Positions 5,241-63,292 of a stretch of DNA of 64,000 nucleotides are shown one piece after another (the first letter of the stretch is position 1; every line of letters begins with the position of its first letter). The notes under the pieces are model-generated. The model was given only the letters and a program-made list of their open reading frames with translations. It searched no databases and had not been told where the DNA came from. A program made the position numbers and the translations under genes. This DNA comes from Dehalococcoidia bacterium (GTDB taxonomy: Bacteria; Chloroflexota; Dehalococcoidia; Lucifugimonadales; HRBIN23). The stretch is taken from positions 158,896 through 222,895 of the forward strand of contig JANXCH010000001.1 of the NCBI GenBank assembly GCA_025060295.1, read 5' to 3'.

Positions 5241-5610
5241 GGCAAGGGGGCCGGGCGACCGCTCCTCCGCAATGGAGGGGAGGAAAGTCCGAGCACCGCC
5301 GGGCAGGGTGCTGGGTAACACCCAGGCGGGGCGACCCGACGGAAAGTGCCACAGAAACCACACCGCCAGCGGCCGGCGGGTATTCGCCGGTGCGGGCAAG
5401 GGTGAAATCGGGGGGTAAGAGCCCCCGGCCGTCCGTGGCGACACGGCGGCGGGCAAACCCCACCCGGTGCAAGGCCCAATAGGGGGAAAGGGTGCCCGGC
5501 CCAGTCCCCGGGTAGGCCGCTAGAGCCGTCCAGCAATGGACGGCCCAGAGGGATGGTCGCCCCTGGCACTGTTGTGCCAGGACAGAACTCGGCTTATAGG
5601 CCCCCTTGCC
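5241..5610 (+). ncRNA. rnpB: RNase P RNA (M1 RNA, type A)
   Basis: The catalytic RNA that trims the 5' leader of pre-tRNAs. The ends pair perfectly as helix P1 (GGCAAGGGGGCC with GGCCCCCTTGCC). The universally conserved core elements are present: GAGGAAAGTCCGAGC near the 5' side, the CACAGAAA segment, GGTAAGAGCCC, GGCAAACCCC, and near the 3' end ACAGAACTCGGCTTATAGG. The length of 370 bases is normal for the ancestral A type. Its 3' end is only two bases from the stop codon of the convergent SDR gene. Confidence 0.97.
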
Positions 5611-5612
5611 TT

Positions 5613-18565: not shown

Positions 18566-18642
18566 GGGCGGGTAGCTCAGAGGCCCAGAGCACTGCGTTG
18601 ACATCGCAGGGGTCATAGGTTCGAATCCTATCCCGCCCACCA
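18566..18642 (+). tRNA. tRNA-Val (anticodon GAC)
   Basis: A complete cloverleaf. The acceptor stem GGGCGGG pairs with CCCGCCC. The D arm is GCTC...GAGC, and the anticodon stem CTGCG/CGCAG encloses the loop TTGACAT with GAC as anticodon. The T arm ATAGG-TTCGAAT-CCTAT follows. The 3' ACCA is encoded. A small stem TGCTC/GAGCA just after the CCA may mark the transcript end. Confidence 0.97.
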
Positions 18643-45588: not shown

Positions 45589-45667
45589 GACGCAGGAATC
45601 GGAGATGGCCACTTTGTGGGATACGGTCCGGTAACCACAGCATCGGGCAACAGAGAGGGGTGTGCAG

Positions 45668-45865
45668 ATGTCGTGGGTACCCTTTAAACGGGTGCCAAAC
45701 CTCATGGCCGCCGAGATGTGGAAGAACACCCTGGAGGCGGAAGGCCTCCCGACCCGTATCCTGCCTGAGGGGGATATCACCCACTGGAGGGAGCACTGCC
45801 CCTTCGTGGTGTATGTGCCCAAAGGGCGGGAGCATGTGGCCGAGGAGATACTAAGGAAGTTGTGA
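45668..45865 (+). CDS. Small DUF2007-like protein inserted in the nuo operon
   Basis: A 65-residue soluble protein: VPNLMAAEMWKNTLEAEGLPTRILPEGD followed by FVVYVPKGREHVAEEIL. This pattern matches the short DUF2007-type (putative signal-transducing) family, in which a helix with A-E-x-x-x-L-E-A-E-G-I/L is followed by strands ending in a V-P-x-x-x-x-x-A-x-x-I/L helix. GAGAGGGG precedes the ATG; a GTG two codons earlier is possible. It starts 79 bases after nuoK and ends one base before nuoL, so it is co-transcribed and probably translated with complex I. It has no known complex I role; regulation or assembly is a guess. Confidence 0.75.
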   Translation: MSWVPFKRVPNLMAAEMWKNTLEAEGLPTRILPEGDITHWREHCPFVVYVPKGREHVAEEILRKL

Positions 45866-45866
45866 G

Positions 45867-63218: not shown

Positions 63219-63292
63219 TGGCTGCCCGGCCAGGATTCGAACCTGGGTCAAGGGATCCAAAGTCCCCTGTGCTACCGCTGCACCACCGGGCA
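63219..63292 (-). tRNA. tRNA-Gln (anticodon TTG)
   Basis: On the minus strand a full cloverleaf: acceptor TGCCCGG/CCGGGCA, D arm GTGC...GCAC, anticodon stem GGGGA/TCCCT around CTTTGGA with TTG in the centre, T arm CAGG-TTCGAAT-CCTG, discriminator G and encoded CCA. Confidence 0.95.

Follow-up and report, generated by a model that had tools for sequence, protein, structure and literature searches.

A DUF2007-related gene between nuoK and nuoL in Dehalococcoidia probably encodes an unrecognised part or helper of complex I

Complex I of certain bacteria includes small extra proteins of restricted distribution, such as Nqo15/16 in Thermus and NdhS/M/N/O in cyanobacteria. Other bacterial accessory subunits are A9 in Mycobacterium smegmatis and A12, S4, and S6 in Paracoccus denitrificans (PMC12361115); these are proteins other than the one described here. 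This protein, here called X, is likewise small and linked to complex I in a limited set of bacteria; however, it has no match to known accessory subunit families in Pfam or NCBIfam, and while its gene lies inside the nuo operon, its membership in the enzyme is putative. The nearest described family is DUF2007 (PF09413; structure 2hfv), with which X shares its length, the β-α-β-β-α order of its elements, and, in large part, residues A15, W18, and G26; ordinary members differ in lacking the H56-V57 pair of X, and X differs in its placement with complex I genes. A literature search, largely confined to papers outside subscription, returned none joining DUF2007 with complex I.

X was observed in a 64,000-nucleotide stretch of DNA (the window), which carries the gene order nuoABCDHIJK-X-LMN entirely on the plus strand (Table 1). 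X is a real gene. Its open reading frame of 65 codons plus stop begins with ATG, an in-frame GTG at 45662 being a less likely start, and ends in TGA at 45863–45865; the single base 45866 separates this stop from the nuoL start codon, confirming the gene boundaries given by an initial sequence-only reading of this DNA. That reading had also assigned X its own ribosome site and an otherwise canonical operon. A Shine-Dalgarno-like motif is present by eye upstream of X, and a crude pattern of this kind occurs upstream of X in 54 of 103 loci, making a separate site plausible at most. The order of the operon itself stands, but genes for NuoE/F/G-like proteins lie elsewhere in the genome (G000:C11; L148:7874–12766). 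The window's genome (1.61 Mb in 23 contigs) holds one copy of X, as well as one ordinary DUF2007 gene at a separate location (G000:C23:61528–61686, 32.4 bits). At the Rfam gathering threshold, no known RNA element was found in the nuoK-X spacers of the window or of three other loci (L056, L059, and L100).

Table 1. Coordinates of X, its putative signals, and the surrounding nuo genes in the window
Feature	Start	End	Strand	Remarks
nuoA	40357	40749	+	
nuoB	40743	41369	+	ATG start chosen by eye
nuoC	41370	41816	+	
nuoD	41819	42922	+	
nuoH	42922	44130	+	
nuoI	44130	44684	+	start chosen by eye
nuoJ	44684	45226	+	start chosen by eye
nuoK	45229	45588	+	
nuoK-X spacer	45589	45667	+	79 bp; insertions commoner on this side in other genomes
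Putative Shine-Dalgarno of X, GAGAGGGG	45653	45660	+	by eye, upstream of ATG
X	45668	45865	+	65-aa DUF2007-like protein, β-α-β-β-α; C-terminal VPKGREHVAEEILRKL highly conserved in the order
AGGAAG	45854	45859	+	X codons R63-K64 and likely nuoL Shine-Dalgarno, 7 nt before nuoL ATG
nuoL	45867	47843	+	
nuoM	47847	49340	+	GTG start
nuoN	49369	50856	+	

By sequence, X is a remote relative of DUF2007 that falls below the Pfam cut-off. The earlier description of X as DUF2007-like thus stands for the fold and for a distant sequence relationship, but not for formal membership: the profile search that had been proposed gives a match of nearly full length (residues 8–64 of X on positions 6–64 of the 66-position profile) that scores 15.5 bits (E 0.02) against a gathering threshold of 25.7. 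Copies in two other genomes (G055 and G022) reach 22.9 and 22.7 bits, and 18 of 25 diverse X proteins match the family at E ≤ 1; among the DUF2007 matches at E ≤ 0.001 listed above cut-off in 59 genomes, none is a nuo-linked X. Apart from DUF2007, the only Pfam match of X is a weak one to Ecotin; NCBIfam gave no match, and the best hit of the X sequence among solved structures (E 0.71) was to unrelated proteins. An AlphaFold2 model built from 35 sequences predicts a confident β-α-β-β-α fold (pLDDT 92.5; strands at 3–9, 30–33, and 46–51, helices at 12–24 and 55–64). Its top structural matches are ring-building domains of SctJ/PrgK/FliF (best match with Z 9.0, 57 residues aligned, 1.7 Å), which share 9–20% identity with X and occur in an unrelated context; the DUF2007 NMR structure 2hfv (Z 7.2, 65 aligned, 3.8 Å) ranks ninth, behind other folds. 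A ring-forming role was considered on this basis and not adopted, as Z values of 7–9 may mean just a common arrangement. The model comparisons show a common small fold, with no function indicated. The most constant part of X among class members is the predicted second helix (R/K54, H56, V57, E60, and R63-K64), and H56-V57 is present in 41 of 43 aligned X rows as compared with 0 of 30 ordinary DUF2007 rows.

The sequence-only reading had described X as inserted into the operon, and had named absence from all relatives as an outcome that would refute its proposal. X is not absent from them, and a local insertion is not supported: X is an old, stable operon member across much of the class. Strong matches (E ≤ 2.1e-12) occur in 56 of 59 close genomes, including the window's own and one genome (G044) in which the match lies in two broken pieces; a tally of 57 at E ≤ 1 adds only G002, which has weak hits alone, and no match was found in G040 or G043. 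A scan of the GTDB collection that reached close relatives only returned 48 X loci. The named loci belong to Dehalococcoidia, SAR202, or Chloroflexi/Chloroflexota metagenome-assembled genomes, together with Bacterium HR23 (HRbin23), which has an X with 95% identity to that of the window. Across the class, 218 of 294 genomes match X at E ≤ 0.1, though the weakest of these matches may be ordinary DUF2007. A survey of the nuoK-nuoL gap in relatives, as had been suggested, revealed a strong link to complex I: nuoK-X-nuoL lie in this order on one strand in 94 of 96 distinct loci (103 loci in all), a count that tells the position of X and not its frequency in the class, as all loci were found through X. 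This total comprises 92 loci recognized by a strict script and two (L077 and L102) that the script missed because the nuoK and X matches touch by one base. The two exceptions are a locus that ends before nuoK (L011) and one in G041 (L009:1498–1692), where the operon is split between X and nuoL, with nuoL-nuoM elsewhere on the same contig. Loci taken from more distant X matches of the class show the same order in 20 of 20 cases.

X is also less changed than the membrane subunits beside it. Sequence identity to the window has a median of 73% for X (95 loci), as compared with 58% for NuoL (94), 48% for NuoK (94), and 41% for NuoJ (92), and X is the most conserved of the four in 88 of the 91 loci where all were matched. 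When compared with its nearest relative, X has a dN/dS of 0.026, as against 0.100 for NuoL and 0.113 for NuoJ; NuoK is saturated. Over 988 pairs from 78 loci, which are not independent of one another and are partly near saturation, X has a median of 0.171, NuoL of 0.243, and NuoK of 0.261, and X lies below NuoL in 849 of the pairs. That so small a protein is better conserved than the membrane subunits next to it suggests that this enzyme, though much studied, has an unrecognised component in a large and mostly uncultured group. Individual loci show local irregularities. One copy (L094:2998–3189) contains two in-frame TGA codons, the first at a position that is Gly in most relatives and the second at one that is Gly, Ser, or Ala, while a 718-residue ORF that shares the reading frame of its NuoL is intact; this reflects either a broken X or assembly errors. 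In HRbin23 (L056), the nearest relative, the nuoK-X spacer is 495 bp long and holds a 152-residue ORF (2524–2982) that by eye is coiled-coil-like, with a hydrophobic stretch at its C-terminus; in another locus, nuoK and X are separated by a 289-residue ORF (L059:2017–2886) judged by eye to be methyltransferase-like.

X is lineage-specific and dispensable for having complex I. Forty-two genomes without a strong X were considered: four close relatives (G044 among them), 20 of the 76 X-less genomes, and 18 with weak hits only. NuoL is missing at E ≤ 1e-60 from twenty of the 42. Among the remaining 22, the nuoK-nuoL junction is readable and free of X in 17, which indicates that X is no universal core subunit; two carry X at the junction after all (G044, in two frames, and G135, at 32 bits), and in three the junction runs off the contig (G002, G131, and G288). 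The 17 X-less junctions fall in families f54 (six), f59 (four), f85 (one), and f110 (one), plus G043, G219, G080, G040, and G159; f54, with genomes of 1.4–1.9 Mb, presumably corresponds to Dehalococcoides/Dehalogenimonas. NuoL from these genomes is 54–60% identical to that of the window in 13 cases and 43–48% identical in G043, G219, G080, and G040. G044, G135, and G041 each have an additional nuo operon (L187, L188, and L220) that is more divergent and lacks X.

When 400 genomes of the phylum were searched with a profile of 25 X proteins, 50 matched, of which 19 lie outside the class. Twenty loci were taken for comparison (17 of these 19, plus three weak in-class matches), and ten, scoring 34–58 bits, grouped with X. 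Eight of the ten (L109–L113, L115, L116, and L118) have the order X-DRTGG/AAA_26-NuoE-NuoF, with a NuoG-like gene in reach in five; a ninth (L108) reads NuoEFG-X-nuoABCDHIJ, and the tenth (L114), cut by a contig end, was grouped on sequence alone. The His-Val pair is found in nine of the ten, with Lys-Val in L108. In all six of the ten genomes in which the nuoK-nuoL junction was looked at, it lacks X. X has thus moved, yet again lies beside complex I genes, and inherited gene order alone is insufficient to account for this. By comparison, none of 30 ordinary DUF2007 loci had a match to complex I, DRTGG, or NuoEFG genes at E ≤ 1e-5, in a sample made up of ten loci from the X profile (20–35 bits) and 20 from the Pfam model that span at most ~1.5 kb on either side. 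One of the ordinary loci (L117), at 35 bits equal to L118, was so classed after no nuo gene was seen beside it; it lacks His-Val and falls among the ordinary rows in the tree. This tree of 73 rows (13 of 25 A2 rows, 20 class loci, the ten loci linked to nuoEFG or so grouped, and the 30 ordinary ones) recovers a class X group at 92/83, short of the level that the program marks with a star, and places L108 near ordinary DUF2007 rows; with too few columns, it does not join all complex-I-linked X in one supported clade. This topology and the missing His of L108 mean that the copies outside the class could reflect independent recruitment of sister subfamilies.

Within the class, the end of X is also intertwined with the start of nuoL. 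The last sense codons of X, AGG AAG TTG, contain the likely nuoL ribosome site. Where nuoL begins within 20 nt of X, AGG encodes R63 in 56 of 77 distinct loci and R54 in only 7 of 77; where nuoL lies farther off, R63 is AGG in 7 of 18. This codon choice suggests that a nuoL ribosome site is kept within the end of X. The Arg-Lys pair is retained with other codons as well, so both protein and mRNA appear to be under selection.

Together, genetic linkage, conservation, overlap with nuoL, and the positions in other classes make a complex I function likely; across all readings of this kind, we regard it as very likely. X is conserved, is less changed than the adjacent subunits, and is found next to complex I genes at its other positions as well, from which it would probably be an unrecognised part or helper of the enzyme. 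X has the conserved genetic linkage to complex I genes by which an accessory subunit may be recognized, and is not, as a core subunit would be, present wherever the complex I core is. We favor, at slightly under an even chance and ahead of an assembly factor and then a regulator, a peripheral, lineage-specific accessory subunit. X would be a dedicated complex I protein of Dehalococcoidia and some other Chloroflexota, made as a small soluble domain encoded just before NuoL in the same operon; it would bind the cytosolic side of complex I through its charged second helix (R54, E55, H56, E60, R63, and K64), and remain there. We infer its translation in the cell, its physical binding, and its place as a stoichiometric subunit as opposed to a transient helper; a cytosolic location is presumed from the lack of any signal or membrane segment visible by eye. 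A broader proposal, tentative and somewhat short of an even chance, is that complex I of Dehalococcoidia (SAR202 and relatives) contains a new stoichiometric, soluble subunit of DUF2007 fold with a conserved His-bearing helix, and that in other Chloroflexota this subfamily moved to the NADH module, where it has a DRTGG partner. X offers the first testable role for a DUF2007 branch and, if it is a stoichiometric subunit, would represent the first function for one. As SAR202 bacteria are now in culture (PMC10444878), it may be possible to study their complex I in its native form.

An assembly or quality-control factor—acting on newly made NuoL or the membrane arm, elsewhere on the NADH module, and leaving the finished enzyme—is the most serious competitor, albeit an unlikely one. 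It is consistent with the X-nuoL order and the overlap just described, with the presence of nuoL within 20 nt of X in 78 of 95 distinct loci, and with gaps above 150 bp falling rather on the nuoK side (13 of 93 distinct loci) than on the nuoL side (4 of 95), as well as with the lack of X in some lineages that have complex I. In known structures of complex I, a long distance separates the NuoEFG and nuoKL modules; X being linked to the former in other classes and to the latter in Dehalococcoidia, a helper fits as well as a subunit. However, in G041 X stayed with nuoK while nuoL is elsewhere, and conservation above that of neighboring subunits is not expected for most assembly factors.

Less probable still is a regulator, in which X would serve as a PII-like or small-molecule-sensing domain that tunes complex I, elsewhere together with the AAA_26/DRTGG protein. 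Pfam labels DUF2007 a "putative prokaryotic signal transducing protein", the X model has weaker fold matches to the PII-like proteins SbtB, PstA, and TTHA0516, and a DRTGG/AAA_26 protein stands beside eight of the ten outside-class copies, where it heads NuoE-NuoF clusters (L109, L110, L118, and others). However, the loop between strands 2 and 3 of the monomer model has 12 residues (34–45), shorter than the T-loop of PII/GlnB-like proteins; SctJ/PrgK and 2hfv, rather than PII, are the best fold matches; no ligand site or motif was identified in X, short of a systematic search; and neither the window nor any of 14 NuoF/G regions from the order (own genome counted) contains a DRTGG match.

Vertical inheritance by itself can hold gene order within a class, and X might then be a passenger with no bearing on complex I, its operon position merely inherited; the different yet again complex-I-linked positions in other classes, set against the lack of any such linkage in ordinary DUF2007 loci, make this highly improbable. 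There is next to no likelihood that X acts mainly in cis, as a leader ORF that couples nuoK and nuoL expression by translation, for although its last codons resemble a nuoL ribosome site and AGG is enriched at R63 over R54 when nuoL is close, amino acids are conserved over its full length with the low dN/dS given above, its predicted fold is confident, R63-K64 is kept also where nuoL is farther off, and some copies do not precede nuoL at all.

Two readings involving the NADH module were set aside. The X-DRTGG-NuoE-NuoF clusters had suggested X as a docking adaptor for a detachable NuoEF module, but X does not track NuoF: among 38 genomes, three carry X (G054, G228, and G122) but no protein that matches the window genome's NuoF at E ≤ 1e-20, and NuoF-like proteins with up to 52% identity to it occur in genomes that lack X. 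TIGR01959 detects NuoF-like proteins in 263 of the 294 genomes of the class, commonly more than one in each and so probably paralogues, such that presence alone tells little. A tie between X and loss of the NADH module is not supported, as all 14 regions read (own genome counted), each picked for a NuoF match, show NuoF/NuoG-like genes at another place in the genome. The NuoG-like gene of the window's genome (L148:10109–12766) scores higher as a formate dehydrogenase alpha subunit than as NuoG, with both scores below cut-off.

Beyond the nuo cluster, the window contains a class A RNase P RNA at 5243–5612 and tRNA genes at 18566–18639 (plus strand) and 63222–63292 (minus strand).
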